The notes under the pieces: model-generated | Databases searched by the model: none | Seen by the model: the letters and a program-made list of their open reading frames with translations, nothing else | Told to the model about the DNA's origin: nothing | Translations under genes and position numbers: made by a program | Shown: piece by piece, positions 476 to 23,277 of the stretch | Position numbering within the stretch: position 1 is the first letter of the stretch | Layout: each line of letters begins with the position of its first letter | IMG/VR virus record: IMGVR_UViG_3300007541_000178 | Location: 1 to 26,117 of that record | Length of the DNA: 26,117 nt | Origin: a virus | Reading direction: 5' to 3' (one strand)

Positions 476-512
476 GCTTGACTAGGTGGCGCGGATGCTG
501 GAGTTTTTACGC

Positions 513-893
513 ATGAAAGCAATGCTAATCGCAATGGCGGTGCTGGTGGCACCGGTGATGGGGGAGGATGAGGATAACAATGAGCGCGCAGAACTTGCCA
601 AGTTCATAGGCGGAGCATACAAGGGTCGTGGAACCTGGGTGATGACCAGCGGCAACAATGCCCTAAGTGATCGTGGTTGCATAAGAAAAGTGGGTAACAA
701 TTACTTTACGCCTGAGGGTTTTTACAGGAAGGTTGGGAATACATACCTGAAAGACGGCGAAGCGATTGTGACAACCGGAAAAACATTTCTTGGTGATGGC
801 GCGGTTGTGTCAACCGGCAGGACATATCTTGGAGATGATAGGGTCAAGGTATCCACAGGACACACGATTCTTGACTCAGACGTTTCCGAGTAG
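513..893 (+). CDS. predicted exported tandem-repeat protein (moron-like)
   Basis: This is the only plus-strand gene in the left 23 kb. I chose the ATG at 513 because GGAG lies 9 bases upstream and the product then begins with a clean signal peptide (MKAMLIAMAVLVAPVMG, cleavage near residue 17). Upstream GTG (486) and ATG (495) starts in frame would bury the signal. The mature part is acidic at first (EDEDNNE). Residues 57-120 are then imperfect repeats of about 13-15 residues with a G-x-T-[YF] core (VGNNYF, VGNTYL, TGKTFL, TGRTYL, TGHTIL). Such G-N-T-Y-type repeats occur in exported bacterial proteins of unknown function; that comparison is from memory. Its last 18 bases overlap the end of the convergent lysozyme gene. 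The isolated, opposite-strand position suggests a moron expressed independently of the late genes. Confidence 0.75.
   Translation: MKAMLIAMAVLVAPVMGEDEDNNERAELAKFIGGAYKGRGTWVMTSGNNALSDRGCIRKVGNNYFTPEGFYRKVGNTYLKDGEAIVTTGKTFLGDGAVVSTGRTYLGDDRVKVSTGHTILDSDVSE
681..872 (+). repeat. imperfect coding tandem repeat in the exported protein
   Basis: About five degenerate units of 39-45 bases encode the G-x-T-Y/F motifs. The best-matching neighbouring DNA units are around 765-808 and 804-850, where ACCGGAAAAACATTTCTTGG and ACCGGCAGGACATATCTTGG align with only a few mismatches. The units keep reading frame, so copy-number change would lengthen or shorten the protein without breaking it. Confidence 0.6.
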
Positions 894-1649
894 GGCAAGC
901 CTGTTTCTTATCCTGTTTTCAAGCCCGCGAAGGAGCGGCTTTCTGGCTGGGTTCCTATTGGCCATCCTATATTCATCCTGAAGCTGTGCATCACTGGCAG
1001 CACGCATCAGGGCTTGTGGCTGAACCTTATTAATGGCGGCCAGGGTTTGCGGACCAAGCTTACCGTCCACGGACACATTCACGCCCAGCGTGTTTAATCC
1101 TTGCTGGAGATATTTCGTTGCGCCGCCCATCCCTCGATTAAACGCGAGATCCTGCGCGAATGGCTGGATGGCGCTGGGGAGTTTTGAGACGAGCGGGGAT
1201 GTGTATTCCCTGATGTACTGCGCCGCTGCTCCCGCTCTTTCCTGCGCCGGGAGCGCTGCGATTCTTTTGAAGGCTTCAGGATGGTAGCGGTCGTTGATTC
1301 CGGCCACCTCAAAGTTACCACCCATGTCACCGGCAGGCAATTTGTAGACCTGGAGATTTCCCTGCTTGTCCTTTCTGGCCTCAAAGTCGATGGTCTTGAG
1401 TGCGGCCAGTTGTAGCGGGTCTTGTGATGGTTTAGTTGTCATGGCTGTTTCCTCTGGTATAAACTCAAATTCCTGTTCTGGGGCCGGTTGGTTTTGTTGG
1501 ATTTGTTCCTGTTTCTGAATCGGCTGATTGATCGGATAGGTTTGCCTTATTTCTTCCGGCACACCCGTATAAGGAGATCCTGTCAATTCGCGTGAAATTA
1601 TGTCCTTGCGAAGTTCGCGGCTTGATGCTGGGTTTATCTCAAATCTCAT
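876..1649 (-). CDS. virion-associated lysozyme, GH108-like with peptidoglycan-binding domain
   Basis: This 257-residue protein probably cuts peptidoglycan, either during genome ejection or at lysis. Residues 1-75 are a Pro/Gln/Glu-rich linker carrying the tag EQEFEFIPEE (58-67). From about residue 80 it resembles glycoside hydrolase family 108 muramidases: Glu90 (in IDFEARKDKQG) is the likely catalytic acid, followed by GNFEVAGINDRYHPEA, which is typical of phage members. A peptidoglycan-binding region follows (FNRGMGGATKYLQ, then VDGKLGPQTLAAIN, about 170-207). The start overlaps the stop of the 1185-residue ejection protein as ATGA, so the two are translationally coupled. In T7 a lytic transglycosylase domain is part of gp16 itself; here the enzyme is separate. 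The position suggests a virion enzyme, but it may also serve as the only endolysin, since none other is visible. Confidence 0.75.
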   Translation of the reverse strand: MRFEINPASSRELRKDIISRELTGSPYTGVPEEIRQTYPINQPIQKQEQIQQNQPAPEQEFEFIPEETAMTTKPSQDPLQLAALKTIDFEARKDKQGNLQVYKLPAGDMGGNFEVAGINDRYHPEAFKRIAALPAQERAGAAAQYIREYTSPLVSKLPSAIQPFAQDLAFNRGMGGATKYLQQGLNTLGVNVSVDGKLGPQTLAAINKVQPQALMRAASDAQLQDEYRMANRNPARKPLLRGLENRIRNRLALLGNV

Positions 1650-4600
1650 TGCCTTTCTCCCGCCATAATCCTGCGCCTGTTCTTTTGCAGGAATTGGATT
1701 CTTGCATCATCCCCAACCTGGGCATAGGCATTGCGAAGCGTTACGACCTTCTCCTCCTTGCTCATTGCCCGGAACTGCTTGTTTTTAAAAAGCTCCTCGG
1801 CTGCCCTGCGGTTTGCCCGCCCGCGCACCTTTGAATACTCCTCGTAAAGATCGGGCGAAAGCCTGTATTTAACATTGTCGATGGTAAAGTTTCTTTGCGG
1901 CTTGGGCGGGATGACATCGCCATCCTCTGTTTCCTTGAAAATCTTGTATATCTCAATGGTGATTGGATCGTAGGTTGCGGTGCGACCCTTGGTTACATCA
2001 AGGAAGTTGTAGGCAATTGGATCTGCGCCTTCCGGGGTCTGGGGTATTTCCCTGCCCCACACATCTATTCTTCTTGGAATATCCTCATCTGCTCCAGGCA
2101 ACCTCCTTCTTAAAACCTCTCCAAAAAGATTTATGGTTCTCTCCACGCTCTCCCCCTCAATATCCTTGATCTGAATCTTGTCCGGCAAAGACTCTCGCAT
2201 GGATCTGGATACGGCTGAAAGCGTGTTGGGGAATGGTATGGATGAAATTGTGCCAAAATAATTTGAGATCCAGTTGTCCATCGTTGCACCTTGGCCGTCC
2301 AAAAGTGCTGACAAAAGGCTGTTTGTTCCCTTTAGAAAGCTCTGGTTCATGGCAAAGGAAAGCGTTTCCGGCACCAGCGCGGTCACAAATTCAGGGCTGA
2401 TGAAATCGCCACCCTCGGTTGCCTTACTTGCGGCGTCCCACGTGGCAAGCATCCCGCCAACAATACCAAGCTTCTCAAGGTTAATCACCCTGTCTCCTGG
2501 CTGAAGCTCGGTTGACTCGCCTTCGGCAAATCTATTCAAAGCGCTTATGTTTATTGTTCTTGGTGGTATAGTTTTGTATTGGATGTCTCTTGCCTTCTCG
2601 CCCTGTTCAGCCCTTCCTCCAATTATATTGTTATCGGAAAGAACTTTTGCCACCGAACCAATGGTCAGGCTTGTCAGGGTTTTGCCAATGGCAATTTGCA
2701 TTTCCCTCTGATTCCCCGCCTTCCAAGCCGGGTATCCCCTGAATATAAGCGCGTAGCCTGGAAGGGAATAATCCAACATTTCATCAATTACATTTGCCGG
2801 TGTTTTGGCGTAGGGGATGATTGTCTTCCCGACAAATCTTGCCGGTCCAAATCTGCTTCCAAGCCCAAACATATTCGCCGCGCTCAATGCAGCTCTTGTG
2901 AGCGGAGTATCCTGCTGGAAGACTGCCTGGGCAGCCTCTTGCTCTATTTTTGAAAATTCGCCAGCCTTCGGAAATCTGGCTGCCACCGAAACCGCTTTTC
3001 CGGTTTTACCAGCAAGCTGTGCCGACTCGGAAAGCAGTCTGGCCTGCGCCATGCGCCTGAACGGGGTGTCTCCAAGTTGGAGCAGGCGAAGCATTGTTTC
3101 TGGCGGTGCGCCCAATGCCGCTTCTGCCGCCAACCTTGCGCGATCAAGCACGTTGGCACCAAGACCTTTCCATCCTGTCTGCACTGGTTTTGCCAACCCT
3201 GCTCCGGTCCAAAATTGCTTGAAAGCCTGAATGGGCTGGAATCCACGGATTCTTTCGCCTGCCAGCAAACCTTCCGCGCTAATTCCACGACGAAGACCGA
3301 CAATTCCCTCGACTGTCCCACGTCCAAGCGCTTTCAGGCTTTCGCCAACCCTCCTTGCCCCGGCCAATGATAGTGGTGAGGATATTTGCCTTGGGCCAAG
3401 TTTTACTCCAAACAATCCTTGGAAAGCTCTGGTTATCTCCTGACTTACAAATGCCCCCTGGCGGGACATAAGCCTTGGGAGTGCGCTGACCGCATTACTC
3501 CACAAGTTTGTGGCGATGGAAAGTGGGGCAAGTAGATTTCCCTGAATCACGGTTGGCAATGTTTCGCCAAAAAACTTTTTGGGCAAAAGCCTGCTTTCAA
3601 AATTTTGTAATCTAAAAAGACTTTCCTGTAATATCTTTTCTGCTTTTGCTGCCTTCAGGATATCCGCATCATTCAATGTCTGTCTCGCCCGATCGGCAAG
3701 CTGATCGAATCTTGTTTGGAGTCTTGATTTTACCGCAAATAATTTTCTGCCTTGGGAAAGCAACTCCGGGGTAAGCCTTCGGTTTGCCTTATCAAGAGCC
3801 GTTACTAGCGTATAAAAATATCCTTGCGGATTTGTGCTTCTCAATGCCCTTGTGGCTGCCACCACTTGTCCGGCCTCAGTGGCATTTGCCTCTCTTAAAA
3901 ATCTTCTTACGGTTCCCTCAAGCTCGTCCACGCTCCCGGTTGCGGCAGCCCGGTTGATCAATTCAGCCTTGGCAACAATCTTCTGCGGTTCTGTTCCCTC
4001 CAGGGCAAGCCTCTCGACATCAGCCCTGTCTGCTCCAGCCATCGCCTCTTCAAATGCCTTTTGCTTAAACTTGCCATATTGAATATCCTCGCTCTGCGCC
4101 AGCCTTTCCCGCACTCCTCGATCAAGCAACGGGTCTTTTACCAGCCTCTTTCCGACAGCTCTCACCCCCGTCTGTGCGGTTTCTTCTGGAAGCTTAATTG
4201 GCGGCTGTTTTGCCGCTGCCTCTGCAACGGCAGGCGCAGCCTCAACTGCCGCAGGTGCAGCCTGCGCCACCTCTGCGGTTGGCCTTGCAACTGCGGCAGG
4301 AGCTGCTTCTGCCGCCTCTGTGACTGTTCTAGCTCCAGCTCCACGGAAAGCCTGAATGGCTGGTCTTGCAAGTCCGGCAACGCCGCCGATGGTCGGGGTA
4401 AGGATTGCGGCAGCAGTTGTGGAAACGGGGTATTGCTCAATGTCCCGCTGCAGGACTTCCTCGATCCTTGCCATGCGTTCCGGCCCAAGGACAGCGCCAA
4501 GAGCCGCTGTCTGCGCTTTCTCCGCACCCAGATATGCCGCTGTGCCTGCCGCCAGCCCGCCAACTATTCTTGCTGGCAATGGCCCTGGCGTAAGCGCAAA

Positions 4601-5203
4601 TCCTGCCCTTGCGGCTGCCCCGCCAGCCGTAGTCGGCAGAACCTCCCGCGCCAGCGTGCGGGCAACTGCGCCAAGCCTGCTGGGTTGTTCCTCGATTTCG
4701 AACACATCAATCTCGCCTTGAGGCGAAGCTTCGATTCGGACAAGCTTGCCAGCCTTATCCTTGCCTATGGCAAACCCGCCGCCCGTGTCCTTATCGGTGC
4801 CGGAGGATACGGTTTCGATCCCCAGCCTTTGCGCCTCTTTGACCGCTGGGATTGCCGGTTGTTCGATTGCGCCTTCGGCTAATGCCTGTTCGGTTGGCTT
4901 GAATCCTTCGGCAATCGTGCCATCCGGCCTCTTGATTGCACCCATCGCGTCAACCGCTTCGCCCGCCGCCTGTGCGGCTTGTTCGGGTGTTGCGCCAGCC
5001 TGAAGCTGTTTTTGTGTTTCCGCCTGAAGAACAGCTTGGCGCTCTGGCGAGATTACATCTTCAGCCCTTCCGCCTGATGCTATGTACTGCGCCTTGGTTA
5101 AATTGCCATCCTGTGCCTCTGGCACAAACTCAAGTTCTTGTTCCTGTTCTGGTACAAACTCCAGTTCAGGTTCGTTGGCCGGTTGCCTCAAGCCCCTGGC
5201 CAT
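1646..5203 (-). CDS. large internal virion (ejection) protein, gp16 position
   Basis: This 1185-residue protein lies where T7 encodes gp16, the large core protein that enters the cell with the DNA. Residues 11-30 hold two tandem decapeptides (EPELEFVPEQ, EQELEFVPEA). An Ala/Gly-rich, weakly hydrophobic region covers about 185-285, and a long AAPAAV-type low-complexity stretch covers about 295-335. Helical segments follow, and the IPYAKTPANV motif at 796-805 is seen in many large phage polyvalent or ejection proteins. Hydrophobic patches near 555-580, 810-825 and 835-855 could contact membrane. No lysozyme motif is visible; that function sits in the next gene, with an ATGA overlap. The assignment rests on size, composition, the KTP motif and synteny, not on a specific catalytic domain. 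Confidence 0.7.
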   Translation of the reverse strand: MARGLRQPANEPELEFVPEQEQELEFVPEAQDGNLTKAQYIASGGRAEDVISPERQAVLQAETQKQLQAGATPEQAAQAAGEAVDAMGAIKRPDGTIAEGFKPTEQALAEGAIEQPAIPAVKEAQRLGIETVSSGTDKDTGGGFAIGKDKAGKLVRIEASPQGEIDVFEIEEQPSRLGAVARTLAREVLPTTAGGAAARAGFALTPGPLPARIVGGLAAGTAAYLGAEKAQTAALGAVLGPERMARIEEVLQRDIEQYPVSTTAAAILTPTIGGVAGLARPAIQAFRGAGARTVTEAAEAAPAAVARPTAEVAQAAPAAVEAAPAVAEAAAKQPPIKLPEETAQTGVRAVGKRLVKDPLLDRGVRERLAQSEDIQYGKFKQKAFEEAMAGADRADVERLALEGTEPQKIVAKAELINRAAATGSVDELEGTVRRFLREANATEAGQVVAATRALRSTNPQGYFYTLVTALDKANRRLTPELLSQGRKLFAVKSRLQTRFDQLADRARQTLNDADILKAAKAEKILQESLFRLQNFESRLLPKKFFGETLPTVIQGNLLAPLSIATNLWSNAVSALPRLMSRQGAFVSQEITRAFQGLFGVKLGPRQISSPLSLAGARRVGESLKALGRGTVEGIVGLRRGISAEGLLAGERIRGFQPIQAFKQFWTGAGLAKPVQTGWKGLGANVLDRARLAAEAALGAPPETMLRLLQLGDTPFRRMAQARLLSESAQLAGKTGKAVSVAARFPKAGEFSKIEQEAAQAVFQQDTPLTRAALSAANMFGLGSRFGPARFVGKTIIPYAKTPANVIDEMLDYSLPGYALIFRGYPAWKAGNQREMQIAIGKTLTSLTIGSVAKVLSDNNIIGGRAEQGEKARDIQYKTIPPRTINISALNRFAEGESTELQPGDRVINLEKLGIVGGMLATWDAASKATEGGDFISPEFVTALVPETLSFAMNQSFLKGTNSLLSALLDGQGATMDNWISNYFGTISSIPFPNTLSAVSRSMRESLPDKIQIKDIEGESVERTINLFGEVLRRRLPGADEDIPRRIDVWGREIPQTPEGADPIAYNFLDVTKGRTATYDPITIEIYKIFKETEDGDVIPPKPQRNFTIDNVKYRLSPDLYEEYSKVRGRANRRAAEELFKNKQFRAMSKEEKVVTLRNAYAQVGDDARIQFLQKNRRRIMAGERQ

Positions 5204-5206
5204 GAC

Positions 5207-5881
5207 TTATCGCTTCGGCTGAAGCGTACCCCTCTGACCCTTGATGATTACGGTTTGACCAGGCTTGATCCCGGCGGCACGGGCTTCGGCGGCGGAATTA
5301 AACGATGGGATGGTTTCTGCGGTTGCGGCTGATGGCGCGGCTGTTGCCACCGGGGCTGCCGCCTCAACTTCCTGCATAGCTGGTTGAGTCATTTGTCCAG
5401 CCTGACGGTCAAAAGATAGTTCGGCAAGCCTTCCCTGCACAACTCCACGCTCGGCCTCCAGCTCCTTCATAATATCGGAGCGTCTTTTCAGCCCAAGCGC
5501 TCCAAGCCCAAGCTCCGCCCGAAATGCACGGGTGTCGCCGCGAGCAATTTCAAGTTCTTGTTTCATTTTTTCAGATGCAATTTTCCGCAGGCGATCATTT
5601 AGCTCTTCGCGCTGTACGGCAATTTCCTCATTTTCCAGCATCTGCTCGTTTGTAAGCGTGTTTCCGATTCCCTGAAGATATGGTGATAGCGTTGGATCTT
5701 GGCTTAATTTGGGAAGATCCTTCAGTTTTCCCTTGACCTTGAGGCCGCCCTTCTCAAATGTGAAATCGACATCAGGCTGTTCGGCTTCTTGCGCGGCGCG
5801 TTGCGCCTCAGCTTGGCGAATACGCATAAGCTCGTCTTGTCTTGACATTTCCATGAGTGCCGGGATGTCGATAACTGCCAT
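5207..5881 (-). CDS. coiled-coil internal virion protein candidate
   Basis: The 224-residue product is rich in Glu, Gln, Lys and Arg. Predicted long helices cover about 10-35 and 75-165 (EEIAVQREELNDRLRKIASE and following), which suggests coiled coils. The C-terminal segment IPSFNSAAEARAAGIKPGQ followed by a short beta-like VIIKG resembles a tail found at the ends of several phage structural proteins, where it may be a small docking domain. The ATG at 5881 has AGGAG 5 bases upstream (GGAGAAATAAAATG region). It sits between the gp15-position and gp16-position proteins with gaps of 10 and 3 bases, so a role in the ejected core or its assembly is likely. I do not recognise the family. Confidence 0.6.
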   Translation of the reverse strand: MAVIDIPALMEMSRQDELMRIRQAEAQRAAQEAEQPDVDFTFEKGGLKVKGKLKDLPKLSQDPTLSPYLQGIGNTLTNEQMLENEEIAVQREELNDRLRKIASEKMKQELEIARGDTRAFRAELGLGALGLKRRSDIMKELEAERGVVQGRLAELSFDRQAGQMTQPAMQEVEAAAPVATAAPSAATAETIPSFNSAAEARAAGIKPGQTVIIKGQRGTLQPKR

Positions 5882-21840: not shown

Positions 21841-23277
21841 TCAACCTCCTGCGTCGAAGCCAGCCATGACAGGGTCGCTCGACTCCATCATGGCAAGCAA
21901 TGACCTCCACGTTGGCTTCTCCACCGGAAAGGTCAAGTCGAACTTCATATTACCACCGTCAAGGCACAGGGCAAGGGCATCGGCCTTGTCCGGGCTGGCG
22001 AGTCCCCTGGCTCGCATCGAATCCTTGGATTCAACCCCCAGCTTCCCCTTGGAATTGACCAGACTGCGCCGACAGGTCAGTTGCGCGGTCAGCTCCTCGT
22101 CGTCGGGCAGGATGATCTCGGCGTTCTCGATCTTCTTGGCCATGCCATACCACATCTCGGCAGCCCGGTTGGTGTAGGCATCAGCGTCGTAGGCGGCGGA
22201 GCCGAAGTTGACGCGATTGACCTCCCAGCCCGCCTCGGCCAAGGCATCGCACATCGGCATACCCAACCCGCTGGCGTCGGCGTAGATGTCTTCTGGCTTC
22301 AGGCCAGCCTTCTTAAACTCAACGATAAACCTACCCACCGCCGCCATCGTATCGCGCTCTTTCCAGGCTAGGAAGCTCAAAACCTTGTTGCCATCCCTTA
22401 CGCACAGCACGTTGGAATCGCCACCGGCGGCAAAGTCAACGCCCGCCACCTTGGTTCCGGGCTTGAAGTCGGGCGGGCTGACAAGGCAGTTCTGGAGCTG
22501 GTTTAGGTTAATAATCAGGCTTTCGCTGCCGATGTCCACAAACTCCCCATATATCATGGAGCGGGTCAGCGGGTGCTTCTCGCCATACCGCTGGATCACC
22601 TCCTCGATCTGTTTCTGGGTAATATGGGGGCAGTCAAAGGCGGTTACGGCATGGGTCTTCCACATAGCCGCCTCCTTGGTGAAGGCGCGGTAGAAGGCTC
22701 CGCTTGAGCCGCCGGGGCTGCTGGCGATAAGAAGGCGGGTGGGTTGGCACCGACTGATGGCCTCAAACAAGGGGTCAGCAACGGTCTTGGCCTCGTCCAC
22801 CACCATCAGCAAGGGCGACAACTCGTGGTTCTCGGCGTGCCAGCCTTCCGCCCGCCCTGGATCGGTGGCTGAATAGCCGATAATGCGGGATGTGTTGCCT
22901 TCCGGGTGCAGGTAGCGGATCTCCCCGGATGTGACCTCCCAGGCACCGCCTAGCTTCGCTGTGAGGGATCTTAGGCTAGGCCAGAGCTGGGACTCGACCT
23001 GGCGGAAAACGCCTGCGGTCGTAACCGCAATGGAGCGGCGATAGACAAGGGCGTGCCACACCAAAACGCTGGCAATTACGGTGGAAGTCTTGCCGGAGCC
23101 GTTGGCGGCTCGCAGGGCGACTCTGGAGTCGATAGGGGCTAAATCAGCAAGAACATCCCTTTGCCACTTGTAGAGGTTGATGCCCAGAACCTTATCCGCG
23201 AAATGAGCAGGGTTTAAGAGTTGGTCTAGCAACTCGTCGGGGGTCTGCTGCGCTGATTTGGGAACTCGTCTAGCCAT
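21841..23277 (-). CDS. terL: terminase large subunit
   Basis: The 478-residue DNA-packaging motor shows all expected parts. The ATPase half has Walker A AANGSGKTS (57-65), Walker B LLMVVDEA (156-163, with Asp161 and Glu162) and a coupling segment IASSPGGSSG (184-193). The nuclease half has VAGVDFAAGGD (277-287, Asp281), YADASGLG (332-339, Asp334) and SPDKADAL (428-435, Asp433) as the metal-binding acidic residues. It cuts and pumps concatemeric DNA through the portal. A short AGAGG lies just before the ATG, tighter than usual. The stop codon overlaps the Shine-Dalgarno of the holin-like gene. Length is normal and no key residue is missing. Confidence 0.93.
   Translation of the reverse strand: MARRVPKSAQQTPDELLDQLLNPAHFADKVLGINLYKWQRDVLADLAPIDSRVALRAANGSGKTSTVIASVLVWHALVYRRSIAVTTAGVFRQVESQLWPSLRSLTAKLGGAWEVTSGEIRYLHPEGNTSRIIGYSATDPGRAEGWHAENHELSPLLMVVDEAKTVADPLFEAISRCQPTRLLIASSPGGSSGAFYRAFTKEAAMWKTHAVTAFDCPHITQKQIEEVIQRYGEKHPLTRSMIYGEFVDIGSESLIINLNQLQNCLVSPPDFKPGTKVAGVDFAAGGDSNVLCVRDGNKVLSFLAWKERDTMAAVGRFIVEFKKAGLKPEDIYADASGLGMPMCDALAEAGWEVNRVNFGSAAYDADAYTNRAAEMWYGMAKKIENAEIILPDDEELTAQLTCRRSLVNSKGKLGVESKDSMRARGLASPDKADALALCLDGGNMKFDLTFPVEKPTWRSLLAMMESSDPVMAGFDAGG

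Follow-up and report, generated by a model that had tools for sequence, protein, structure and literature searches.

Two neighbouring genes of this virus encode a very large putative ejection protein (EJ) and a lysozyme, and both products carry the same short acidic tag. Among relatives the tag was found either in both proteins or in neither, and its letters change jointly in the two. On balance, we think it probable that through the tag EJ and the lysozyme attach to the same partner, likeliest the small protein p224 of the ejection cassette, and that an internal start in the lysozyme gene yields free enzyme.

The window, i.e. the whole stretch of DNA analysed, corresponds to a virus record 26,117 bases long. 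Its head-tail genes lie on the minus strand in the order terminase, portal, scaffold-like, capsid, tail-tube genes, p160, p532, p224, EJ and lysozyme. The capsid gene matches phrog_1357; the names scaffold, TubA and TubB are assumptions of ours, made from gene order. The EJ and lysozyme ORFs share a four-base overlap, and the EJ ORF has an N-terminus that reads MARGLRQPANEPELEFVPEQEQELEFVPEA. The two proteins and their tags map as follows.

1646 to 5203, minus strand: EJ, putative ejection (internal virion) protein, 1185 aa, with two N-terminal tags
5144 to 5185, minus strand: EJ tag copy 1, QPANEPELEFVPEQ, aa 7-20
5114 to 5143, minus strand: EJ tag copy 2, EQELEFVPEA, aa 21-30, a tandem 10-residue repeat of copy 1
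4685 to 4714, minus strand: degenerate third site in EJ, EIDVFEIEEQ, aa 164-173, placed by alignment
876 to 1649, minus strand: lysozyme, 257 aa, with an N-terminal arm (aa 1-85), enzyme region and PG_binding_3 domain (aa 177-246)
1449 to 1490, minus strand: lysozyme-arm tag, QPAPEQEFEFIPEE, aa 54-67, a low-entropy island in a variable linker

EJ matched nothing in PHROGs, Pfam, NCBIfam or phage records and gave no significant match in PDB; the name 'ejection protein' is therefore positional. Its great size, its position after the tail-tube genes and its hydrophobic stretches fit podoviral ejection proteins, and on these grounds both its role and its location in the virion are putative. The lysozyme has PG_binding_3 and endolysin matches, and a weak match, below the family cut-off, to a holin-associated N-acetylmuramidase. 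No cultured relative of EJ was found in phage records (the sister EJ gave one match, E 0.6), and of 56 candidate EJ stretches in genome contigs none was confirmed. Cultured-phage matches to the lysozyme span 31-61% of the protein, residues 98-253 at the widest, and never cover the tag, which was also absent from the five proteins of Akkermansia phage Chantilly that we inspected. Akkermansia phages are the nearest cultured ones for both the terminase large subunit (21841-23277, minus strand; 37% identity) and the lysozyme (31.5% identity), hinting at a host in the Verrucomicrobiota.

Tag copies and their occurrence among relatives

The three tag copies reported in a preliminary description of this DNA are all present on the minus strand; their locations were right, with the ends drawn one codon too wide. 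The QPA prefix, which had been counted as part of the pattern, falls outside the conserved motif, whose core is [LFY]-[DE]-[FVI]-[VI]-[PE]-E. A core pattern, [ED]x[ED][LFIVM][ED][FYW][VIL]P[ED], occurs nowhere else in the six frames of the window. The best ungapped match between EJ and the lysozyme is the tag itself, with a score of 51, where shuffled sequences averaged 37-38.5 (sd about 4.3); for this window pair, 9, 11 and 16 shuffles per 1000 reached that score under three shuffle schemes. When the lysozyme linker was compared with EJ residues 1-180 only, 2 of 400 shuffles did as well. The likeness had been called too specific to be a composition effect, which overstates what the window alone can say, since there it is moderately improbable; the relatives remove the doubt.

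Loci were collected from viral-contig scans with EJ, the lysozyme, the sister EJ, an EJ alignment and the sister lysozyme. We counted 93 distinct EJ/lysozyme pairs in which both N-termini were complete, truncated loci being excluded. The search in relatives that the preliminary description had proposed gave a clear split: with a homologous EJ, the tag was present in both proteins in 51 of 51 pairs (37 of subtype A2, 11 of A1 and 3 of type B), and with an unrelated EJ it was present in neither protein in 42 of 42. Among the truncated loci, the lysozyme tag was found in all four that have a homologous EJ, and no tag was found in the five with an unrelated EJ. The motif [LFY][ED][FVI][VI][PE][EDGP], which we composed after sight of these sequences, occurs in 48/51 EJ ORFs and 46/71 lysozymes, compared to 1/1036 other ORFs (232,189 aa). 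A query with the tag peptide returned chance-level matches only (E 3-10). Taken genome by genome, subtype A2 sometimes has a non-significant match between EJ and lysozyme, with 190/400 shuffles as good in L011 and 196/400 in L060.

In the lysozyme, the tag core forms a low-entropy island (F in 39 and E in 40 of 42 distinct tagged arms), and the linker around it is variable and rich in Q and P. The spacing from the tag to the enzyme domain is 25 residues in 38 of these arms and 23 in the other four.

It had further been claimed that the DNA of the copies is similar. This is so (21-23 of 27 bases in the window), with no excess over what the shared residues and codon use predict (P 0.06-0.22), and therefore the DNA argument adds nothing. 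These figures bear on the proposal that one tag was duplicated at the DNA level from the other, in either direction, and persists as a functionless relic. Besides the 21-23 identical bases, a third EJ copy in relative L063 speaks for it, as it agrees with the lysozyme copy at 24/27 bases (P 0.007) and could reflect a local copy event. Elsewhere, however, the DNA likeness is as the residues predict, and neither conservation of the core within a variable linker nor retention in 51/51 pairs is what a relic would lead one to expect; we regard this origin as highly improbable. The related suggestion of a split gene found no support, as no fused EJ-lysozyme ORF was present in the loci examined and the likeness of the window DNA is explained by residues.

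In untagged cassettes (classes C and D), a search for a different shared tag was negative, with 37 to 348 of 400 shuffles equalling the real EJ-lysozyme match at the six loci tested; at one of the six, L073, the match between the lysozyme and the upstream protein was reached by 5/400. Loci L066, L083, L090 and L073 have another ejection cassette, with proteins of about 700 aa that have IDIEGVGEIDLPDD-like starts. The upstream proteins of this cassette begin FNIEGPE, and the lysozymes of L066, L083 and L090 begin FDISG, a possible instance of a different shared N-terminal strand. Most class D relatives (among L181, L182 and L186-L198) have a lysozyme that lacks the N-terminal arm. An N-terminal signature of the form Phi-[DEN]-Phi-x-[GPN] was seen in 11/21 EJ, 4/25 unrelated EJ, 14/46 lysozymes, and 5/30 unrelated upstream proteins, compared to 11/684 others; it was found in 0/21 p224, and as a general signature of cassette proteins we treat it as no more than a lead.

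Joint switching of tag type and the candidate partner p224

In type A, ELEFVPE-like copies stand twice in EJ, and the lysozyme carries EFEFIPE, EFEFVPE or LDFIEE. In type B (L055, L061 and L063), the EJ N-terminus has YEV[LI]E and LPGY[ED]VIE, and the lysozyme has LPGYEIIE. Type B EJs have an extra LPGYDVIEE at aa 158-166, a true tag copy in this sister lineage at the place of the degenerate third site of type A. Outside the tag, A and B EJs show 52-58% identity to the B reference.

Types A and B are separated by distances of 0.70-0.73 at the EJ N-terminus, 0.75-0.85 in the lysozyme tag and 0.73-0.74 in p224, compared to 0.40-0.44 for the EJ core and 0.17-0.21 for the enzyme domain, for which the A1-A2 distances are 0.40 and 0.20, respectively. 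No rise was seen for p532 and p160. Correlations were computed for the 34 genomes that have all genes, out of 42 in which EJ, lysozyme and p224 are present. Distances between lysozyme tags followed those between p224 proteins (rho 0.82) and between EJ tags (rho 0.81), and were weakly related to those of the EJ core between the tags (rho 0.35), p532 (0.24) and p160 (0.20), in genomes that share ancestry and hence are not independent events. The A-to-B switch itself is one event, represented by three contigs. The EJ core recombines: that of the natural mosaic L025 (L025:1671-5243) clusters with type B (support 100/97), whereas the EJ tag, the lysozyme tag and the p224 segment of this genome are all of type A. 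In subtype A2, the EJ cores form two clades. Joint presence (51/51 and 42/42) and joint type switching of both tags bear out, in part, the docking signal suggested in the preliminary description.

One simple explanation would be direct pairing of the tags in a beta-zipper, with no third partner. Such pairing would fit the shift of both tags to the same new letters, the two or three copies in EJ and the strand-like residue pattern. It leaves the switch of p224 unexplained, however, and strongly acidic strands should repel each other; we consider it quite unlikely.

The gene that switches with the tags, and its most constrained segment, are located as follows.

5207 to 5881, minus strand: p224, a 224-aa helical protein directly upstream of EJ, candidate docking partner
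5726 to 5779, minus strand: p224 segment QPDVDFTFEKGGLKVKGK, near-invariant in type A, predicted beta-hairpin

p224 is the sole other gene observed to switch with tag type. Compared with the p224 of the window, type A versions score 218-458 bits and type B versions 24-30 bits; a type B query found only two loci. In the untagged genomes tested, p224 is absent, or is represented in two of them by a 30-residue C-terminal piece alone. This piece sits within an upstream protein of about 450 aa in two class D relatives (50-53%). The C-terminal mini-domain, SFNSAAEARAAGIKPGQTVIIKGQRGTLQ (5219-5305, minus strand), is kept in types A and B and is found also in class D. At the place matching QPDVDFTFEKGGLKVKGK, a hairpin is predicted in the model of type B p224 as well.

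From this co-variation, we infer that p224 is probably the common partner of the EJ and lysozyme tags. Because p224 adjoins the EJ tag, the two may have moved in one recombination. AlphaFold predictions of a natural fusion of p224 with the EJ N-terminus were poor (two models, pTM 0.24 and 0.25), with no docking visible and low confidence in the regions that hold the tags. A Foldseek search returned nothing at E 0.001, the best match being a prefoldin (E 0.57).

An alternative is that the tags dock to a protein of head assembly, for instance the scaffold, and that p224 is a third tagged cargo, by virtue of its QPDVDFTFE. In P22, the ejection proteins need the scaffold and enter by way of N-terminal parts (PMC8402733). 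The first half of QPDVDFTFEKGGLKVKGK, QPDVDFTFEK, is indeed tag-like: of 7475 windows in the proteins encoded here, just the three tags outscore it (13.3; next 7.1). Against this, subtype A1 shows the resemblance weakly (lysozyme linker versus p224 in the window, 292/400 shuffles as good), and type B p224 has no LPGYEVIE-like tag. Nor do scaffold, portal and capsid vary by tag state: regardless of it, identity is 82-90% for the portal (full-length matches), 63-81% for the scaffold and 75-97% for the capsid in the long contigs compared; the three type B contigs are short fragments without a portal match. Conserved in this way across the tagged and untagged long contigs, these head proteins are not favoured as a tag-specific receptor, and we regard the alternative as a whole as unlikely. 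A further proposal, that the motif acts after ejection by binding a component of the host envelope in the periplasm, seems to us scarcely probable at all, as the switch accompanies a phage gene, p224, which would not be expected for a host receptor.

With p224 as the likeliest partner, the tag would be a short linear docking motif of the core given above that probably adopts an extended strand when bound. Through it, EJ and the long lysozyme would each attach to the one cassette partner, so that a lysozyme not fused to EJ could nonetheless assemble with it and be delivered along with it to the cell wall.

Comparison with known packaging systems

The nearest parallel is in T4, where the internal proteins IPI, IPII and IPIII are described as sharing a capsid targeting sequence (CTS), the first 10 residues of which, in IPIII, suffice for head entry (PMC9026906, PMC8402733). 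As with the CTS, the same short peptide is found here on otherwise unrelated proteins, whose internal location is putative in our case. The arrangement differs, however, in that the tag is doubled in tandem in EJ and sits inside a linker in the lysozyme, where it is at aa 54-67 rather than at the extreme N-terminus (the EJ tags are at aa 7-30). Here, moreover, a neighbouring gene changes along with the letters of the tag, and we claim no sequence relation to the CTS. Relevant to the same comparison, no prohead protease family was matched in the head-region ORFs that we scanned.

In P22, the ejection proteins gp7, gp16 and gp20 enter procapsids, gp7 and gp20 through their N-terminal parts, and scaffold is needed (PMC8402733). 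Whereas each P22 protein has a site of its own and depends on scaffold, here one motif occurs in two proteins and the scaffold is independent of tag state. In T7 gp16 and in gp35 of K1E/K1-5, a cell-wall enzyme domain lies inside an ejection protein, and this domain moves between proteins (PMC8954989). As in those phages, the cell-wall enzyme here would travel with the ejection complex, although as a separate protein, apparently linked to it by a motif.

We found no description in the literature of a motif shared by an ejection protein and a lysozyme, or of a virion lysozyme released by an internal start, in a search made mostly without subscription papers. Little is known of the way in which short-tailed phages gather separate internal proteins for ejection, and a motif that switches in two proteins along with a single small gene points to the product of that gene as candidate receptor.

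A probable internal start in the lysozyme gene

Immediately behind its tag, the lysozyme gene has the signals of a second translation start.

1450 to 1455, minus strand: probable internal Shine-Dalgarno (SD) sequence AGAGGA, within the tag codons CCA GAG GAA
1440 to 1442, minus strand: probable internal start codon ATG, Met70
876 to 1442, minus strand: predicted short, untagged lysozyme of 188 aa

In the window, AGAGGA sits seven bases upstream of the Met70 ATG. Met70 precedes the enzyme motif (aa 86) and PG_binding_3 (aa 177) and so lies outside the conserved domains, and a Met follows the tag core in 41/42 distinct tagged arms. We calculated the energy of pairing with the anti-SD for each context. 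Values of -5 kcal/mol or lower were obtained for 23 of 26 distinct Met70 contexts (mean -6.1). Of the other in-frame ATGs inside genes, 299 of 2068 reach this level (mean -1.9), and the averages at real starts are -6.8 for the lysozyme, -5.9 for EJ and -6.6 for TubB. RNA structure at the internal start is weak (-1.8 versus a gene mean of -5.8 kcal/mol). At the Glu codon of the tag that forms the SD, GAG is used in 38/40 (45% genome-wide), and the Glu codons around it are mostly GAA (19/22, 16/18, 30/40 and 29/30).

These signals suggest that an internal start behind the tag probably leads to both tagged and untagged enzyme. One caveat concerns codon choice: in a synonymous-codon test for the SD, single genomes were mostly non-significant (p about 0.1-0.5), and the pooled test is inflated by relatedness. 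A comparable start signal is also present in 10 of 20 untagged arms. The arm-less class D lysozymes begin 15 residues before the enzyme motif, close to the Met70 position (16 in 22/26), with weaker SDs (-2.4 to -3.9).

Given the overlap of tag and SD, the lysozyme tag might be mainly an RNA signal, its GAG GAA serving to bind the ribosome for the short form and its likeness to EJ being partly due to chance. The use of GAG in 38/40 at the SD codon and an SD energy like that of real starts would fit. The preceding [LFY]-[DE]-F-[VI] would then be unexplained, as would the joint change with EJ to LPGYEIIE, and we judge this very unlikely as the main role of the tag. The ribosome-binding site, rather than docking, may nonetheless be what keeps the Glu-Glu end of the lysozyme tag.

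Returning to docking through p224, the 188-aa untagged lysozyme, as predicted from its start signals, could not dock and would be free to act as endolysin. A fuller version, which we put forward tentatively and rate as possible rather than probable, is that one lysozyme gene has two addresses: the tagged form would dock to p224/EJ for entry, the short form would serve for exit, the tag codons would double as the ribosome-binding site of the short form, and the tag would be a label that is swapped together with the receptor gene. If the two-form lysozyme is true, a single phage gene would provide the enzyme for entry as well as that for exit, and such peptide tags could be used for loading proteins into phage heads. 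A survey of endolysins describes in-frame double starts as common among those of Gram-positive phages, and set aside phages of Gram-negative hosts as unlikely to carry them (PMC9430671). In contrast to the two-polypeptide endolysins surveyed there, all from phages of Gram-positive hosts, the short form here would keep the whole enzyme and lose just the docking arm.

Two further genes border the lysozyme. A 135-aa ORF (486-893, plus strand) converges on its 3' end and overlaps it; this ORF has a signal-peptide-like start and short STGRTYLGDD-like repeats, has no family match, and was detected by tblastn in 98 loci (overlapping loci being counted apart). It is possibly a lysis or envelope protein. 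A gene resembling PD-(D/E)XK endonucleases (PF11645; 95-475, minus strand) adjoins the lysozyme in most relatives.
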